From an uncultured Ignavibacteria bacterium (lineage in GTDB: Bacteria > Bacteroidota > Ignavibacteria > Ch128b), in assembly GCA_937944105.1 (NCBI GenBank), contig CALDZP010000004.1, forward strand, positions 1-33,188: DNA of 33,188 nt, read 5' to 3'. The notes below the pieces were generated by a model. That model made no database searches and was not told the origin of the DNA. It saw only the letters and a list, made by a program, of their open reading frames with translations. The position numbers and the translations under genes were made by a program. Positions 11-33,188 of this stretch are shown piece after piece (within the stretch, counting starts at the first letter, position 1; each line of letters starts with the position of its first letter).

Positions 11-124
11 AGTCATTGCGAGGAGTGAAACGACGAAGCAATCTTTCACAAAAAAAAACAATTTGAGAATTGGTCATTCAACCAGAAAAGATTGCTTCCC
101 CGCCTTTGGCGGATCGCAATGACT
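11..124. repeat. Hairpin repeat unit L1 (about 114 bp, inverted-repeat ends)
   Basis: The unit begins with agtcattgcga and ends with its exact reverse complement, tcgcaatgact. A second nested pair is gaagcaatctt against aagattgcttc, so the whole unit can fold into one long stem around an AT-rich centre. A 12-base linker (gtttcatttagc) separates it from the next unit, and the tail of the same linker is visible at bases 1-10, so the array probably continues to the left. No ORF lies inside. It looks like a non-coding MITE-like or REP-like element. Confidence 0.85.
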
Positions 125-136
125 GTTTCATTTAGC

Positions 137-251
137 AGTCATTGCGAGGAGTGAAACGACGAAGCAATCTCTCACAATAGAACAAAATGAAAATTGGTAA
201 TTCAACCAGAAAGGATTGCTTTTCCGATTTTCATCCTAACTCGCAATAACT
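137..251. repeat. Hairpin repeat unit L2 (degenerate second copy)
   Basis: This is a direct repeat of the preceding unit with a period of 126 bases. The left half (agtcattgcgaggagtgaaa) is identical, while the right arm has decayed to tcgcaataact. Its interior shares ttcaacca and cgattttcatc with the repeats near the right end of the window, so all belong to one family. Confidence 0.8.
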
Positions 252-8766: not shown

Positions 8767-9279
8767 CTTAACTCTCTCTTTTTTTTACTGATATTTTTTT
8801 GAAACTACTAAAAATTTCAAAAATTTGATGATAAAATTTGTGAAAGAGGTTTTATAAAAATCTAACTTTCTACATAAGCAAATTTTTTACACTTCGCAAA
8901 ATGAAAACAATTGAATTTTTTATCGACAGGAATTTTTGAAAACTATTGGCAATAGAAGTGAATTTTGTTGGTCACTTCAACTCCGCTCAATAACACACAC
9001 AATTGGTTGCCAGGCAGAGCCGAGGCAACCAATTATTTTGCTGAACCTGAATTTATTTTTTTAAGGTATGTCATCTCAACTCCGCTCAGTGACCTGATTT
9101 GAATGTTGCCGAGTACTCTACATATGTTGTCGGGCGGAATCGAGACAACCGATGTTTTTTGTGACAGTGAAAGCTATTTAAGGACAAGGTCACCTCAACT
9201 CCGCTCGATGACCGATTTTTGATGATACCCGATAATTGAAATTAGTTTATTACTACTTAAAATTTGAGAATTAAAAATC
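8767..9279. other. Intergenic region holding the alternating palindrome array
   Basis: No gene was seen. The part next to the M14 gene (8767-8960) is AT-rich and should contain its promoter, but no convincing -33/-7 pair was found. The part next to aroK holds the palindrome array listed separately. Its stems may also stop aro operon transcripts, which would otherwise lack an obvious terminator. Confidence 0.6.
8970..9213. repeat. Alternating array of two palindromic repeat families (A-B-A-B-A)
   Basis: Unit A (gtcac-ttcaactccgctca-gtgacc, with self-complementary ends) occurs at 8970-8994, 9070-9094 and 9188-9213. Between these lie two B units. B1 at 9001-9034 is a perfect 11-bp stem, aattggttgcc against ggcaaccaatt. 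B2 at 9125-9149 is gttgtc against gacaac. Both families have a G+C-rich centre unlike the surrounding DNA. Such short interspersed palindromes are, from general knowledge, common in intergenic DNA of Bacteroidota relatives. In RNA each unit would form a stem-loop. Confidence 0.85.
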
Positions 9280-9786
9280 TTACATTCCAATGAAATTAAT
9301 TATTTCTTCAGCACATTTTTCAAGTGGCATAGTGGATGTATTGACCTTAAAGTCAGCATATTCTTCGTATAATGGAATACGTCTTTGATATGTGATGCTC
9401 AAATCATCTTCTGCATCAAGCGTTGGATTTAACTTTGGTCGATCAGGATCATTTAGTATTCTTTGTTTTATGTCCTTAAGACTTGCTTGAACATAGACAA
9501 TATAACCGTTCTTTTTAAGATTGTCTATATTCGATGGATTTTCAACTGCCCCGCCACCTGTATCAATTACAGAATTATCTTTTTCAGAGACCTGTTCAAT
9601 AATTTTTGATTCAACATCTCTGAAATAGTTCCAACCCTTCTCCGCAACTATTTCCCTGATTTTTTTACCTTCTTTTTCTTCAATTAATTTATCAATTGTA
9701 TAGAGTTCCATTTGAAGTTTTTCTGATAGTAACTTGGCAAGTGCTGTTTTGCCAGCTCCACGAAATCCAATTAAGACAATATTCAT
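9280..9786 (-). CDS. aroK: Shikimate kinase
   Basis: The 168-residue cytoplasmic P-loop kinase converts shikimate to shikimate-3-phosphate. Visible motifs are Walker A GFRGAGKT (7-14), Arg56 in YFRDVE, the shikimate-binding TGGGAV (GGG 77-79), Arg116 in the DPDRPKLN lid and Arg136 in RRIPLYEEYAD. Two positions are unusual. The family's D-x-D motif reads YTID, so the first Asp (Mg-associated in characterised enzymes) is Thr30 while the shikimate-contacting Asp32 is kept. The GE pair before FR is GW (Trp52). The start overlaps the aroA stop as ATGA, implying translational coupling. It is the last gene of the shikimate operon, which makes the assignment secure despite the substitutions. Confidence 0.93.
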   Translation of the reverse strand: MNIVLIGFRGAGKTALAKLLSEKLQMELYTIDKLIEEKEGKKIREIVAEKGWNYFRDVESKIIEQVSEKDNSVIDTGGGAVENPSNIDNLKKNGYIVYVQASLKDIKQRILNDPDRPKLNPTLDAEDDLSITYQRRIPLYEEYADFKVNTSTMPLEKCAEEIINFIGM

Positions 9787-11021
9787 ATTTTATATGCTTC
9801 TCTTAATTTGTTGAACTCTGACCAGAAATTTGTAAAAGATTTTTTTACACACTCAGGATTTTTAATTTTTATACCAGGAATTTTTAATTGAACAATAGCA
9901 AAACTCATAGCTAAACGATGATCGTTATAAGTTTCAATTTCAGCAGGAACATAACTTTCGGATGGTATAATTTCTAGAAAATCTTTGCCCTGATTTACCA
10001 TAACTCCAATTTTTTTTAACTCTGTTGAAAGTGCTGAAATTCTATCCGATTCTTTATAACGCAAATTTTCAATATTCTTGATTAGTGTTTTACCTTCGGC
10101 AAAAATTGAAACTACAGCAAGTGCTGGAACAGAGTCAGGTGCATCGTTCATATCTACTGAAACGCCTTTTAATTTTTTCCCTGTAAGTATAACATAATTT
10201 TTGCCCCACCTAATAGTACAACCCATTCTCTTGAGAATTTTAATGAATTTGATATCAGCTTGTAAAGAGTTTTTATTAATTCCATAAACTTTAATTGATT
10301 TTTTTAATACAGCAGCTGAACCAAAAAAATATGTTGCCGAAGAAGAATCTCTTTCAATATTAATTTCTGCAGGTTTTAATTTCAAGTCACTTCTTAAATA
10401 AAATGTTTTAAAATTTTGTTGATAAACTTTGACACCAAATTGATTTAATGTATGAAGAGTCATCTTAACATAAGGTAATGAAGACAAGTCATTGTCAGAT
10501 TCAACTGTGAAGTCTTTGCCCAGCACAGGCATAATTAAAAGAAGAGCAGATAAAAACTGGCTACTTATTTTTGGATTAATTATGACTTTTTTAGGGGAAA
10601 AATTACCACCCGCAATTTTCACCGGTGGAAAGCCATTTTTTGAATCAATTTTTACATTCAATTGTTTTAATGCTTCAACAAGGTCACCAATTGGTCTTTG
10701 AAGCATTCTTTTTGAACCTGTGATTATCACTTCACCATGATTTAATACAGATAGAGCAGTTAAAAATCTAAAAGTTGTCCCGGCATTTCCACAATAAATT
10801 TTTGTTTTCTTCTTTGAAAATTTTCCACCATTGCCATTAACAATTACATTATCACCATCGATGTCAATTTTAACACCCAATTTTCTCAATCCTCGAATCA
10901 TATAAATTGTATCTTCACAAAAAGGAAAGTTTCTCAAAAAAGATTTGCCATCTGCAAGCGCAGCTAAAATAAGACAACGATTTGCGTGACTTTTTGAGCC
11001 CGGTGGTATAAATTCAAACAT
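9783..11021 (-). CDS. aroA: 3-phosphoshikimate 1-carboxyvinyltransferase (EPSP synthase)
   Basis: The 412-residue enzyme joins PEP to shikimate-3-phosphate to give EPSP, the glyphosate target step. Motifs in order are PPGSKSHANR (6-15), GNAGTTFRFL (78-87), QRP (108-110), SSQFLS (152-157), Asp295 in NDAPDS and Glu323 in YKESDR, and YNDHRLAM (364-371). The Asp295-Glu323 spacing of 28 equals that of catalytic Asp313 and Glu341 in the E. coli enzyme. The N-terminus is short, with only six residues before PGSKS. The ATG lies 2 nt after the aroDE stop without a strong ribosome binding site, so coupled translation is likely. Its stop overlaps the aroK start. Confidence 0.97.
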   Translation of the reverse strand: MFEFIPPGSKSHANRCLILAALADGKSFLRNFPFCEDTIYMIRGLRKLGVKIDIDGDNVIVNGNGGKFSKKKTKIYCGNAGTTFRFLTALSVLNHGEVIITGSKRMLQRPIGDLVEALKQLNVKIDSKNGFPPVKIAGGNFSPKKVIINPKISSQFLSALLLIMPVLGKDFTVESDNDLSSLPYVKMTLHTLNQFGVKVYQQNFKTFYLRSDLKLKPAEINIERDSSSATYFFGSAAVLKKSIKVYGINKNSLQADIKFIKILKRMGCTIRWGKNYVILTGKKLKGVSVDMNDAPDSVPALAVVSIFAEGKTLIKNIENLRYKESDRISALSTELKKIGVMVNQGKDFLEIIPSESYVPAEIETYNDHRLAMSFAIVQLKIPGIKIKNPECVKKSFTNFWSEFNKLREAYKI

Positions 11022-11023
11022 GA

Positions 11024-12490
11024 TTAAAATTGCTTATCGTAATTCTCTAATAAAAACTTTCTTGCTTTTCTAACCGAAAGATTTTTACCTGTAAAAATTT
11101 TGAATTGATGTATTGCTTGTCGAATAAAAAATTCGAAACCGTTTATCATTTTGATTTTTTTTGAATTTGAAATAGAAATGAGTTTTGATTCTTTGAAGTT
11201 TAAGTCTAAATCTACAACAAGCTTAATTTTATTCATAGAAAAAATTTTTTTTGCAAGATTCAAAGCGAATAAATTGTTTCCCGGTGTAGTGTTAATTAAC
11301 ACATCAATTTGTTCGGGAAGTTTATTTTTATTTTTGATTACCTGAATTTCCATCTCTTCTGCAAGCTTTTTTGCTCTTTCAAAATTTCTATTAATAACAA
11401 AAATTTCATTATTGAATTTTTTTAGTGTATAAATAATCGTTCGGGCTGAACCACCAGCTCCAATAACGAGCACTTTCGAATTTTGAAGTTTCTTTTCTCC
11501 TTTGACAATTTCCTTAAATCCTAAATAATCCGTATTAAACAAAATTGGTTTCGAGTCTTTAAAAATTGCAGTATTCGCTGAACCAATTTCTTTAATAATT
11601 TTTGATGAAATATTTGGAATTTTAAGTATCTCTTCTTTAAATGGAATAGTAATACTAATTCCTCGTATATAATTTTTGAAATACTGTATAAAATTTTCTA
11701 AATCGTTGACCAAAAAATTCAAGTAAATTGCATTAGAACCAGTTTCACTAAATCCGAAATTGTGAAAAAGCCAGCTCTTGCTTTGTTTCAATGGATTACC
11801 AGCTATCCCATAAATTCGAGTTGAAGGATAAATATTTTTAACTCTAAAAATTTTTGTAAGTAATTCCAGTGAAATTTGACCTGAAGCTGTCGCTGAATCA
11901 GATTTAAAGGATGAATAGCAAAACAAGGAACCATGTTTATAAGCTAGTATTCTTGCAGATTTTCCGTATTCACCCATACAATGAGCTATTAGTGGAATCG
12001 ATTTTCTATTTGCAATTTCAAGCAGTTTTAATATAGTATAGTTATCATCAAATGAATTTGCGTAAGTAACAATTTTGTAATATTCCGCTGAAATTTTTCT
12101 TGAATAATCGAGTATTTGAATTAAATATTTGAGCCTGGGTGTTTTTTCATAGTTATGATAAGAAAGAATTAATCTGGTTTTTTTTATTTCTTTCTTTAAC
12201 TTATTGATAAAATTCCTTCCAAGATTTATATCTATATCAATGTAATCTACATCATGTTCAATGGCTATTCGATATTTCTTTGATGCATCTTTTAATTTCG
12301 AATAAGAAAAATTGTTAATTCGATATGTGAAAATTTTCGGAAAAGATGTGGAGTTTAAAATTTTTATTAGTTCTTTGTGATTAATTCTTTCGCCACGAAT
12401 TTCTAAAAGGTCAGCACCAAACTTGTGACCATACTCAATAACTTTTTTAATTTCACGATATGATTTAGGTTGATAAGATAAGACTATCAT
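11024..12490 (-). CDS. aroDE: Bifunctional 3-dehydroquinate dehydratase / shikimate dehydrogenase
   Basis: The 488-residue fusion catalyses two consecutive shikimate steps. Residues 1 to about 215 are a type I (Schiff-base) dehydroquinase: His112 in LSYHNY is the general acid/base, Lys139 in YYKIVTYA the Schiff-base lysine, and HCMGEYGKSAR (170-180) the substrate loop. Residues about 222-488 are an NADP-type shikimate dehydrogenase: substrate-binding YGIAGNPLKQSKS, Lys285 in TIPFKE, Asp321 in NTDYLGF, the dinucleotide loop GAGGSA (344-349), and Asn367-Arg368 for the cofactor 2'-phosphate. The domain order is that of the plant and chlamydial fusions. Both active sites look complete. The gene sits 2 nt from each neighbour, between aroB and aroA, which is exactly its place in the pathway. 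Confidence 0.96.
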   Translation of the reverse strand: MIVLSYQPKSYREIKKVIEYGHKFGADLLEIRGERINHKELIKILNSTSFPKIFTYRINNFSYSKLKDASKKYRIAIEHDVDYIDIDINLGRNFINKLKKEIKKTRLILSYHNYEKTPRLKYLIQILDYSRKISAEYYKIVTYANSFDDNYTILKLLEIANRKSIPLIAHCMGEYGKSARILAYKHGSLFCYSSFKSDSATASGQISLELLTKIFRVKNIYPSTRIYGIAGNPLKQSKSWLFHNFGFSETGSNAIYLNFLVNDLENFIQYFKNYIRGISITIPFKEEILKIPNISSKIIKEIGSANTAIFKDSKPILFNTDYLGFKEIVKGEKKLQNSKVLVIGAGGSARTIIYTLKKFNNEIFVINRNFERAKKLAEEMEIQVIKNKNKLPEQIDVLINTTPGNNLFALNLAKKIFSMNKIKLVVDLDLNFKESKLISISNSKKIKMINGFEFFIRQAIHQFKIFTGKNLSVRKARKFLLENYDKQF

Positions 12491-12492
12491 AA

Positions 12493-13575
12493 TTAATGAT
12501 TATATGCAAGTTCTATAATTTCCGGCGCAACAATTTTGTTGTAATCACATTTTCCAATTTTACGCAATAGTGAAAATGTAATTTGATCATTAATTCTTTT
12601 TTTGTCATAACTCATTTTTTCGAGAGCTTTTTCAAACTTATATTTTTTTCTGTATTGCTTATCAAGTTTTAATTTATCGACAATATATTGAATTCTAAAT
12701 AAATCTACTTCATTAAATTTATTTTGTATATGTGAAATATAACTCTCAACTATTATTCCTTCGGCAACTGCAAAACCATGTTTTAATTTATATCCGCTTA
12801 ATGATTCAATGGCATGACCAACTGTATGACCAAAGTTTAATATTTTTCTTAAATTTTTCTCTTCAGGATCTTTTTCAACAATTTTCGCTTTTACCCTGAT
12901 TGATTCTTCAATTAACTTTTTTATTACATTATCTTTTCGAGCAACAATAGAATTTAAATTTGATTCTAAAAAATCAAATCCATCTGGAGAACCAATTAAT
13001 AACGATTTTAAAATCTCAGCAACTCCATTCATATATTCTTCTTCTGGCAGAGTATTAAGAAAATTAAAATCAATAAACACAAGTGACGGCTGATGAAAAG
13101 TTCCTATTAAATTTTTAGAATGTCTCGTATTTATTCCAGTTTTACCACCAATTGAACTATCAACCTGTGCTATTATAGTTGTTGGTACCTGTACATATCT
13201 AATTCCTCTCAAAATTATTGAAGCTAAAAATCCAGATATATCTCCAACAACTCCTCCACCAATAGCAACAATTAAAGTATTTCGTGATGGTTTATAATCG
13301 ATGATTTGGTTTTCAAGTTCATCCCTAACTTTTTGAGATTTACTTTTTTCTCCTGAAGGAATTATGATAAGCTCGAAATTTTTTGAGGATTTAATTAACT
13401 GATCGTGAAATTTGTTTTTGTAAAGGTTATAAACATTCTCATCTGTTATGATGATAGATTTATCAGGATTTAATTTATTATTTATTAAATCTCTTAATTT
13501 TCCTAAATGATTTTCACCTGTAATTATCGAGTAGGATATATTCTTCAGGGATTTTAATGAGAGTTGAAATTCCAT
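12493..13575 (-). CDS. aroB: 3-dehydroquinate synthase
   Basis: The 360-residue NAD- and zinc-dependent cytoplasmic enzyme cyclises DAHP to 3-dehydroquinate. Visible motifs are SGEKSKS (74-80), the NAD-binding GGGVVGD (106-112), VPTTIIAQVDSSIGGKTGIN (130-149) and NLIGTFHQP (155-163). Zinc ligands are Glu187 (NGVAEILK), His250 (NFGHTVGHAIE) and His266 (LKHGFAVAEG). The length is normal for the family and no key residue is missing. It begins 2 nt after aroF ends and stops 2 nt before aroDE begins. Confidence 0.97.
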   Translation of the reverse strand: MEFQLSLKSLKNISYSIITGENHLGKLRDLINNKLNPDKSIIITDENVYNLYKNKFHDQLIKSSKNFELIIIPSGEKSKSQKVRDELENQIIDYKPSRNTLIVAIGGGVVGDISGFLASIILRGIRYVQVPTTIIAQVDSSIGGKTGINTRHSKNLIGTFHQPSLVFIDFNFLNTLPEEEYMNGVAEILKSLLIGSPDGFDFLESNLNSIVARKDNVIKKLIEESIRVKAKIVEKDPEEKNLRKILNFGHTVGHAIESLSGYKLKHGFAVAEGIIVESYISHIQNKFNEVDLFRIQYIVDKLKLDKQYRKKYKFEKALEKMSYDKKRINDQITFSLLRKIGKCDYNKIVAPEIIELAYNH

Positions 13576-13577
13576 AA

Positions 13578-14588
13578 CTATAATTTTCTTCCTACAGCCT
13601 CTGCAACTTTTTTTGCACGAGCAAGCAAGTAATCAAATTGTTCAAGTCTTATTGCCTGTTCTGAATCAGAATATGCCAGGTCAGGTTCATGATGTACTTC
13701 AACAATCAATCCATCTGCACCAGCAGCAATTGCAGCTAAACTAACTGGAATAACAAGATCCCTTTTACCTGTAGCATGACTTGGATCAACAATTACTGGG
13801 AGATGAGTTCTCTGTTTGATTGCTGGTACTATGCTTATATCAAGTGTATTCCTTGTAAAATCTGAAAATGTTCTGATTCCCCTCTCACATAAAATTACAT
13901 TTTTATTACCGCCCATTAAAATATATTCAGCACTGAATAAAAATTCTTTCAAAGTTGCCGAGTAGCTTCTTTTTAATAAAACTGGTAGATGCGCTTCTCC
14001 AACTGCTTTAAGTAAATTTATGTTGTGCATATTTCTTGCACCAATCTGAATTATATCAACAACTTTTTCGAATTCATTTATATCATGATGATCCAGAATT
14101 TCAGAAATAACCATCAAACCTGTTTCTTCTTTTAATTCTTTTAACAGTTCAAGTCCCTTATAACCTAAGCCTTGAAATGAATATGGACTTGTTCTAAACT
14201 TAAATGCACCTGCTCTAATTATTTTAATTCCAGATTTTTTTAAGTGATTTGCTATTCTGAATAGTTGTTCTTTGGATTCAATTGAGCAAGGACCAGCGAT
14301 AACTGTTAAATCTTTACCGCCTATAGTAACGTCACCAACTTTAATTTTGGTTTCAAGGTTATTAATATTTTTATATACTAATTTAAAGTCCTCGTTTAGT
14401 GAAACTACATATTCAACCTTTGGAAGAGATTTAAAGATTTCAGAATTGATATCATAACTTGGTTGAGTAAGTATAACCGTTTTATCTTCATTTTTAAGAA
14501 TAGAAAATTCCAGTCCGAGTTTTTGTATGAGCATTAATACTTTTTCAATTTCTTCATGCTTTGCGTCTTGATTCATTACTATAATCAT
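13578..14588 (-). CDS. aroF: DAHP synthase, type I-beta with N-terminal ferredoxin-like regulatory domain
   Basis: The 336-residue enzyme condenses PEP with erythrose-4-phosphate, the committed step of aromatic biosynthesis. Residues 1 to about 70 form the small ferredoxin-like domain found in the Thermotoga maritima enzyme, where it mediates feedback inhibition by tyrosine and phenylalanine. The barrel follows with metal-ligand Cys101 in AGPCSIES, RTSPYSFQGLG, IQIGARNM, LLKRSYSAT, LCERGIRTF, DPSHATGKRD and IVEVHHEP. No chorismate mutase domain is fused. GGTGA precedes the ATG. As first gene of the five-gene shikimate operon it places the regulated enzyme at the promoter-proximal end. Tyr/Phe control is inferred from domain architecture. 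Confidence 0.96.
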   Translation of the reverse strand: MIIVMNQDAKHEEIEKVLMLIQKLGLEFSILKNEDKTVILTQPSYDINSEIFKSLPKVEYVVSLNEDFKLVYKNINNLETKIKVGDVTIGGKDLTVIAGPCSIESKEQLFRIANHLKKSGIKIIRAGAFKFRTSPYSFQGLGYKGLELLKELKEETGLMVISEILDHHDINEFEKVVDIIQIGARNMHNINLLKAVGEAHLPVLLKRSYSATLKEFLFSAEYILMGGNKNVILCERGIRTFSDFTRNTLDISIVPAIKQRTHLPVIVDPSHATGKRDLVIPVSLAAIAAGADGLIVEVHHEPDLAYSDSEQAIRLEQFDYLLARAKKVAEAVGRKL

Positions 14589-17857: not shown

Positions 17858-18656
17858 ATAATGCTGATCATTTTTAATTCAATGTTTGATAATACCATTT
17901 TGATAATGCCTTCTTCTGGTTAAACCAACAATTACTAAAAATAGCAGTAATTTTAAATAAAATAATCCTTAACTCATTTATCTTATTGTTTCAATGAGAT
18001 TAATTGAAAAGGCAATCGATCGGATAAATATTAAAAACACATCCTAAAAATGGTTAATATATTCAATCAAGATTAAGTTGCTTTTTTTGTTTCCTTAAAT
18101 TCTAATTCAAAGCTAAATAAAAGCAATAACACATGTCTATTAATTTAATGTCATATCGAACATGTTTTGATATCAAAAAAAATCATTCTAAACTTAAATA
18201 AGTATAAAAAACCTCTCTAAGCATCATCCAAAGCTTTATTCAGGATCTAAAAACTGTAAATGTCGTCCTGAACTTGTTTTGTAATCTAATTTACATTCAA
18301 TTCCTTCGGAGTTGTTTTTATGTGAATCTCCCCTTAAGAGCTTGTCAAAAAATGTCATCCTGAACTTGTTTCAGGATCCAGATCCTCAAATTGTCCTTCC
18401 GAATTTGTTTCAGAATCTAAAACCTAACAACATCATTATAAACTTAATTCAGGATCTAAAATCTTAAAGTATTTTTTCAAACTCCTTTAGGAATTTAGAA
18501 ATGTTATACTGAATTTATCGCAGATACAGTTGGGAAGAGACCATGATACCAGTAAATTGGGAAAGGATAACAATTTTATAAATGAAAATTTGATTTAAGT
18601 TAAAAAGTTATCATTATTTAATTTGAAAAGAATCCTGAAAAAAAATTCAAAAAAAT
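17858..18656. other. Gene-free intergenic DNA with decayed palindromes
   Basis: About 800 bases hold no ORF with coding character on either strand. The first part is plain AT-rich DNA and the second half is occupied by the degenerate palindrome family listed separately. The region separates two convergent units (S46 peptidase and the NYN/lptD/ROK operon), so it needs no promoter. No hairpin with a T-tract was found directly after the NYN gene. Confidence 0.6.
18149..18527. repeat. Cluster of about eight degenerate palindromic repeats
   Basis: The core unit is tgtcat-cctgaacttgtttcagg-atc. One intact copy lies at 18353-18378, where cctgaa pairs with ttcagg around cttgt. Decayed copies are readable near 18149-18174, 18183-18206, 18222-18248, 18261-18287, 18392-18418, 18431-18457 and 18501-18527. 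Spacing is irregular (roughly 35 to 90 bases) and all copies point the same way. The family is intergenic and non-coding; similar palindromes are common, from general knowledge, in Bacteroidota-related genomes. Confidence 0.75.
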
Positions 18657-32847: not shown

Positions 32848-33188
32848 CGATTTTCATCTGGACTCACAATGACTGTTTCACTCAGTAGTCATTGCGAGTC
32901 CCAATCCAAATCGGGACGAAGCAATCCTTCCAAAAAAAACGAAAATGCATTGTAGGTATTTTTAATTCAACCACAAAGGATTTCTTTGTTTCATAAGCAA
33001 TGACTGTTTCACTCAGTAGTCATTGCGAGTCCCGATCCAAATCGGGACGAAGCAATCTTTCCAAAAAAACGAAAATGCATTTTGAGTATTTTTAATTTAA
33101 CCACAAAGGATTTCTTTGTTTCATAAGCAATGACTGTTTCACTCAGTAGTCATTGCGAGTCCCGATCCAAATCAGGACGAAGCAATCC
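32848..33188. repeat. Tandem array of hairpin repeats (right-end copies R0-R3)
   Basis: Two full copies (32887-33005 and 33018-33135) and a third cut off by the window end (33148 onward) repeat with a period of 130-131 bases, separated by gtttcactcagt. A remnant right arm (32848-32874, tcacaatgact) shows an older copy. Each starts agtcattgcga and ends agcaatgact. Next to the left arm is a nested hairpin, gtcccgat-ccaa-atcgggac, which replaces the ggagtgaaacgac segment of the left-end copies. The orientation is the same as at the left end of the window. Confidence 0.85.

Follow-up and report, generated by a model that had tools for sequence, protein, structure and literature searches.

Arrays of head-to-head palindromic repeats at contig ends of an Ignavibacteria genome, a probable variant of the CGTC REPs

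The window analysed here is the whole of contig C4, from first to last base (33,188 bases), in the genome of an uncultured Ignavibacteria bacterium, hereafter G000. Between two terminal repeat blocks the window carries ordinary genes, among them 4-alpha-glucanotransferase, lptD, peptidases, and a shikimate pathway cluster. The latter is compact (9280-14588), and its ORF at 11024-12490 is a fused type I dehydroquinase and shikimate dehydrogenase. Two other intergenic repeats also occur in the window. Three copies of a different palindromic repeat, approximately GTCAYYTCAACTCCGCTCRRTRAC, lie at 8971-9229 with spacings of 99 and 119 bases, and three copies (77-95% alike) of a third repeat, around TGTCATCCTGAACTTGTTTCAGGATC, lie at 18258-18410.

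The terminal blocks consist of tandem units (Table 1). A preliminary description of the window had reported such units at both ends, in the same orientation and joined by specific linkers, and all of this was borne out, including the linker sequences. It had also given the units complementary ends, agtcattgcga and tcgcaatgact. These are present in left unit 1, but the right arm of left unit 2 is imperfect (tcgcaataact), and the complementary ends of the right units are confined to agtcattgc and gcaatgact. Aligned together with its linker, left unit 1 matches left unit 2 at 73.6% identity, and Tandem Repeats Finder resolves the right array into 2.5 copies of period 130 with 95% matches. Comparison of left with right units gives identities of 66.4% and 68.1% and a longest exact common run of 16 bases; the two blocks are different subtypes and would make an unfavourable pair for recombination. 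The long stems that the units had been expected to form are predicted by folding. As RNA, the left units reach z scores of -5.7 and -3.9, and two right stretches of 125 bases reach -4.6 and -3.8, with 0, 0, 0, and 1 of 200 dinucleotide shuffles, respectively, folding equally well. As DNA, left unit 1 and right unit 2 give z scores of -5.65 and -3.42 against dinucleotide shuffles. A scan of the window with Rfam returned no family at gathering score.

Table 1. Repeat features of the window, and places of the repeat along the contigs of G000.
Feature	Position	Strand	Description
Left unit 1	11..124	+	114 bases; AGTCATTGCGAG, insert GAGTGAAACGAC, GAAGCAATC, spacer, GATTGCTTC, insert CCCGCCTTTGGCGG, ATCGCAATGACT
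Linker between left tandem units	125..136	+	gtttcatttagc; 14 bases if counted from TGAC to GTCA
Left unit 2	137..251	+	115 bases; degenerate right arm CTCGCAATAACT
Lone right arm opening the right array	32863..32874	+	CTCACAATGACT
Right unit 1	32887..33005	+	119 bases; other subtype, left insert is the hairpin TCCCAATCCAAATCGGGAC
Linker between right units	33006..33017	+	gtttcactcagt
Right unit 2	33018..33135	+	118 bases; 94.7% identical to right unit 1 over one repeat period
Right unit 3	33148..33188	+	cut by the contig end at 33188
Contig-end repeat places (28)	C3, C4 (two), C6 (two), C11, C12, C17, C33, C34, C35, C38, C39, C41, C42, C45, C46, C49, C54, C58, C73, C76, C78, C80, C84, C88, C94, C95
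Interior repeat places (10)	C1, C11, C17, C25, C27, C33, C44, C46, C73, C76

Copies of the repeat are numerous elsewhere in G000. The exact half-element, defined as GTCATTGCGAG and GAAGCAATC separated by 6-30 bases, occurs 99 times. With inserts of 8-30 bases the pattern matches 69 times, or 44 times when a leading A is required, and the reversed pattern used as a control has no match in the genome. The preliminary description had conceded that copies spread evenly over the genome would make its bracketing of the window a coincidence. The abundance of copies comes near to that case. The copies are clustered at contig ends. Of 38 repeat places counted by hand, 28 come to within about 700 bases of a contig end, whereas end zones of this size make up 4.9% of the assembly (binomial p ~7e-29). 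Some of the tallied places are single partial matches (e.g., C1, the interior place of C11, and the end of C17), and the list of 38 may be incomplete, as 40 of 88 first-look candidates were scored. The window is thus bracketed by repeats because the assembly broke inside their arrays, so that contigs end there, and what had been described as a bracketing of the window is an assembly effect and not biology. For similar cases this serves as a warning that repeats flanking a window on both sides may mark no more than the point where an assembler stopped.

The unit is a head-to-head pair of half-elements, each built as GTCATTGCGAG, an insert that is often a hairpin, and GAAGCAATC, in which the arms are fixed and the inserts are swapped. 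In full, its order is AGTCATTGCGAG, insert, GAAGCAATC, spacer, GATTGCTTC, insert, CTCGCAATGACT. Each half-element is an imperfect hairpin (ATTGC...GCAAT) with a short inner insert or an extra hairpin, so that the unit of about 114-119 bases comprises two half-elements in opposite orientation, and the units themselves run head to tail. The left insert is either GAGTGAAACGAC or a hairpin (AGACAGCC..GGCTGTCT, TCCCGAT..ATCGGGA), and the right insert is either short (GCTCCG) or a hairpin (CCCGCCTTTGGCGG, TTTCCCGAT..ATCGGGA). Among 71 distinct parses of left and right insert, GTGAAA with the short form (16), GTGAAA with CCGCC (11), and AGCC with the short form (11) are the most frequent and others are rarer; the parses include both strands, and some of the remainder are the same units read from the other strand. 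Linkers between TGAC and GTCA measure 14 bases in 82 counts and 15 bases in 14 counts, again with both strands counted. Of 51 dimers of 70-159 bases in the G000 stretches, 48 fall at 100-129 bases, and some arrays contain extra right halves at a spacing of 41-52 bases.

The inserts form stems more often than shuffled inserts do. Stems of at least 4 bases occur in 16/23 distinct inserts from relatives of the same class, 12/60 from named genomes, 26/74 from viral contigs, and 16/33 from G000, against shuffled fractions of 0.154, 0.073, 0.096, and 0.144, respectively. The motif C-GNA-G is found in 18/23, 21/60, and 21/74 distinct inserts of class relatives, named genomes, and viral contigs, for which the maxima over 500 shuffles are 9, 12, and 12. 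Part of this excess is compositional, since the reversed-order control GANGC also exceeds its shuffle mean (7/23, 11/60, and 14/74, against 3.5, 4.8, and 5.5). In DNA, tandem G-A mismatches are favourable, and d(GCGAAGC) forms a mini-hairpin of unusual stability.

A correlation with gene ends was a further suggestion of the preliminary description. Interior arrays with at least four arm matches lie between convergent genes in three of six cases and between unidirectional genes in the other three, and the weaker interior places (two or three arm matches) lie between divergent genes in two of three cases and between unidirectional genes in one. Flanks are therefore mixed 3′ and 5′, and a general 3′-end rule for gene position is not supported in G000. 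Six of 35 repeat clusters in G000 overlap an ORF of at least 90 codons; these are putative frames opened by the repeats themselves.

The family is very widespread among bacteria and patchy across genomes. None of five genomes of the same genus or family contains an exact half-element with an insert of 8-30 bases, of which G000 has 69. With this insert range, 14 of the 61 genomes in the set of relatives carry at least one half-element, and with inserts of 6-30 bases so do 70 of 395 genomes in a sample of the phylum, G000 being included in both counts. The richest genome of that sample is G065, with 241 exact half-elements, followed by G000. Many of the listed copies on the 3.93-Mb contig C1 of G065 (L404-L410) have a partial second left arm a few bases upstream. 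Judged by record title, the half-element is also present in Bradyrhizobium, Chloroflexota, Patescibacteria, Cyanobacteria, Omnitrophota, Rickettsia, and others. Among the matches listed in a scan of named genomes, which covered the best 80 of 114 stretches and is no census, titles include alpha- and gammaproteobacteria, Desulfobacterales, Campylobacterales, Bacteroidota, Armatimonadetes, Gemmatimonadetes, Zixibacteria, Sedimentisphaerales, Chitinispirillales, and others. The E. coli genomes searched gave no match. For comparison, CGTC repeats were placed in five phyla in their 2013 description (PMC3733652), and a 2025 survey that takes in every kind of REP reports them from 16 taxa of bacteria and archaea (PMC12306157).

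Matches also occur on 20 of 72,556 plasmid records (13 over at least 80% of the query) and in 21 of 50,697 named phages (3 over at least 80% of the query), and several IMG/VR contigs hold 3-7 copies. Phage genes were examined in four of these viral contigs, which are phage-like by PHROGs: L294 encodes a portal, major head, and tail fibre protein, L315 and L282 a portal and major head protein, and L300 a head protease and head proteins. The spread of the family is patchy and probably horizontal, and phages are a plausible vehicle for its spread over many phyla. An empty site in a close strain was looked for and none was found; genomes from the genus of G033 are too divergent for this comparison, with about 70-77% identity between aligned flanks, and there a filled and an empty state were seen solely for another repeat family. 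That different family (CCTCATCCCCCCAGCC...) fills an intergenic site at L244:1211-1301 (G033:C6), and about 22 bases lie between the aligned flanks in G042.

Viral contigs reveal a strand rule that is new and lies outside the window. Where a contig has at least two single half-elements at least 400 bases apart, all are on one strand in 15 of 18 contigs (expected 7.0, p ~1e-5), in a test for which 60-base flanks were at most 55% identical. With the elements masked, the CGTC strand of single half-elements coincides with the C-rich strand in 45/58 contigs of the discovery set and in 25/27 at an absolute GC skew of at least 0.10; without pieces shorter than 2.5 kb these counts are 43/56 and 24/26. 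A replication set was tested after the rule was seen, and consisted of 40 earlier unused viral loci and further IMG/VR loci. It gave 69/96 overall and 28/32 at the same skew threshold, which had itself been seen in the discovery data. After 9 loci from contigs already used and pieces below 2.5 kb were dropped, 225 of 242 loci were kept over both sets, and in 152 of them the single half-elements show a net orientation (56 discovery, 96 replication). Discovery and replication sets together (L280-L399, L411-L532) include 58 contigs at an absolute skew of at least 0.10, and 52 of these obey the rule. Among the matches listed from the open-access literature (best 8 of 23), no publication on strand asymmetry of such repeats in phages was found by title.

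Viral contigs are not all independent, and one cluster unites 48-57 of them. When contigs with common DNA (at least 70% identity over 400 bases) are merged, 39/44 clusters at an absolute skew of at least 0.10 follow the rule, as do 18/21 of those without a discovery contig (p 0.0015). The strictest merging, by proteins (40% over 150 residues), leaves 18/22 clusters on the C-rich strand (p 0.004); its replication-only clusters give 8/10 (p 0.11), too few for significance. Gene direction does not explain the rule. Relative to the strand that holds most genes, elements are antisense in 18/43 and 30/69 gene-biased contigs. They are on the C-rich strand in 11/12 and 9/10 contigs whose genes are also there, and still on the C-rich strand in 15/22 and 20/24 contigs whose genes are on the G-rich strand. 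Composition predicts the opposite of what is seen: in controls with shuffled words, the C-rich strand was hit in 615/2894 tests for GCGAGGA and in 983/2129 for AAGCAAT.

Bacterial contigs do not follow the rule, with 24/53 and 8/19 on the C-rich strand; the few contigs at an absolute skew of at least 0.10 give 6/10 and 1/2, and those at 0.06 give 7/19 and 4/9. A replichore strand bias in bacteria, which a run of plus-strand copies in G065 had appeared to suggest, was rejected, as the reversed pattern gave interleaved minus-strand copies over the same range. The run was a listing artefact (about 100 of 241 places), and plus- and minus-strand copies are interleaved along contig C1 of G065.

By the usual convention the leading strand is the G-rich one, which would make the C-rich strand the leading-strand template; this relation comes from bacteria and is assumed here for the phages. 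Two mechanisms could then generate the rule. Hairpin DNA in single-stranded form might insert into one of the two replication strands, in the manner of IS200/IS605 elements, whose target is the lagging-strand template (PMC6006769), or the more stable hairpin might be lost when it is on the lagging-strand template. Both insertion and loss fit the strand rule, and the data do not separate the two. Half-elements of CGTC type may, as a tentative proposal, colonise phages so that the CGTC strand falls on the C-rich strand regardless of gene direction, the hairpin entering or escaping deletion on one replication strand only. If true, this would make them a hairpin element of single-stranded DNA that phages carry from one phylum to another, and would offer a handle on how these orphan repeats move. 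For a superfamily in which the 2013 description found no dedicated transposase (PMC3733652), the phage strand asymmetry, seen in a second set, is a concrete and testable clue that points to single-strand DNA and replication direction.

The most likely history is a horizontal arrival of the elements in the form of single-strand hairpin DNA that some enzyme would have mobilised in trans. Similar arms could then have allowed local multiplication through unequal recombination or slippage during replication, processes that would also swap inserts between units. A mobilising enzyme was sought in a survey of Y1_Tnp and among the 25 largest protein clusters, which are unannotated, at 160 element-bearing loci, and none was found. 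The single-strand mechanism is weakened for chromosomes, because bacterial contigs have no strand bias and the strands in G065 are interleaved.

Other origins for the repeats are less probable than a variant of the CGTC REPs, which are not known to have a transposase. One is that they are REPINs moved by a RAYT (a Y1 HUH transposase) of the same genome. Head-to-head palindromic dimers with a short unpaired tag do resemble REPINs, Y1_Tnp is common in the set of relatives (50/61 genomes), and one RAYT of G024 has a dimer about 0.8 kb away. However, Y1_Tnp is present in 11/14 element-bearing and 39/47 element-free genomes, which shows no association, and that one dimer is the only one within 1 kb of 14 RAYT loci in five element-bearing genomes, the others being 1.4-3.7 kb off. 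Furthermore, the sole Y1_Tnp match of G000 lies inside another repeat family. A link to Y1/RAYT transposases was rejected because neither Y1_Tnp presence nor RAYT proximity is associated with the elements, in agreement with what has been published on CGTC repeats (PMC3733652), and an origin as REPINs is considered unlikely. A profile built from 11 of 30 Y1 seeds had no match in 80 loci, a result of little weight.

As a separate observation on contig C48 of G000 (L078:7523-9910), the Y1 transposase domain is in frame within a 796-aa ORF, open at the stretch end, where it lies between translated repeats (TGIPAC/ILACENSN, VTQAFLPV). The preceding ORF, of 1163 aa, also has VTQAFLPV repeats.

Somewhat less probable again is a classical MITE family, that is, non-autonomous remnants of a DDE-type IS with terminal inverted repeats AGTCATTGCGA...TCGCAATGACT, moved by an IS transposase. 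Terminal inverted repeats of about 11 bases, a body of about 115 bases, and mostly intergenic positions would suit such a family, and as anatomy the phrase "MITE-like hairpin repeats in tandem" in the preliminary description is apt. However, no opposite half lies within 150 bases of 63/125 half-elements in named contigs and 95/147 in viral contigs, in counts that miss partners with more than one arm mismatch. Since half-elements often stand without a partner, the two ends seem not to be needed together. No transposase was recognised among the 25 largest protein clusters, themselves unannotated, of the 160 element-bearing loci, and CGTC REPs are described as having only fortuitous associations with transposase genes (PMC3733652). 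The nearest known kind is a CGTC REP dimer and not a classical MITE with a transposase-bearing parent. Finally, it is highly improbable that the two blocks delimit a real 33-kb unit undergoing amplification or excision through recombination, the scenario envisaged for direct repeats in the preliminary description; they do share one orientation, but both sit at contig ends where other contigs end alike, their units are only 66-68% identical with no common run beyond 16 bases, and the interval carries ordinary chromosomal genes such as the shikimate pathway cluster, lptD, and peptidases.

In the reading preferred here, which is judged likely, each block is a cluster of palindromic elements paired head to head, which represent a variant form of the CGTC-REP type and whose arrays stop assembly. 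The repeats of the window would accordingly be a variant of an already known repeat kind, situated at contig ends. CGTC REPs were described by Di Nocera, De Gregorio and Rocco in 2013 as families CGTC-1 to CGTC-4 whose unpaired tag is CGTC, often TGTC or CCTC, and as not associated with transposase genes (PMC3733652). The comparison that follows is with the text of this description. A literature search with GTCATTGCGAG and related strings yielded no bacterial-repeat paper, judged by title, among the matches listed (8/8; best 20 of 34).

Several traits are shared with CGTC REPs as there described. Both are short palindromes in which an unpaired tag precedes a stem beginning with AT, form mostly head-to-head dimers, are mostly intergenic, are patchy over species, and lack a dedicated transposase (PMC3733652). 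Head-to-head dimers predominate in G000, and no dedicated transposase was found nearby, with Y1_Tnp surveyed directly and other transposases covered only through unannotated protein clusters. The AT stem start (GTC-ATTGC...GCAAT) is present in every copy, but it was built into the search pattern and is not independent evidence. In other traits the fit to the published family is imperfect. The tag base gives a mixed picture: before GTC it is C or T in 102/106 copies from named genomes, as in the CGTC/TGTC tag, whereas in G000 it is A (65/97) or T (30/97). The published tail of three bases is mostly CCA; in G000, CTT or TTT follows AATC in 92/97 copies, and in named genomes CAG or CAT (equivalent to CCA when counted from the stem) follows in 51/106. 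In contrast to the published loops of 4-5 bases, inserts in G000 measure 6-20 bases and are often full hairpins, although arm boundaries may differ between the two descriptions. Tandem clusters, called rare for CGTC REPs, are formed by the G000 units (PMC3733652).

Two further systems invite comparison. The Rickettsia elements RPE-4, RPE-6, and RPE-7 have the motif ATGAC, the reverse complement of GTCAT, in common with the repeats described here (PMC3767692), and CGTC-1 and CGTC-4 of R. conorii have been equated with RPE-6 and RPE-4 (PMC3733652). However, RPEs are known for insertion inside protein genes (PMC3767692), while the arrays here are mostly intergenic. REPINs and BIMEs, which are built from GTAG REPs and linked to RAYTs, likewise consist of paired inverted hairpins spread through a genome, but they have a GTAG tag and a linked RAYT gene (PMC3116915, PMC2817692), in place of which the repeats described here have the tag (A/C/T)GTC and no RAYT link.
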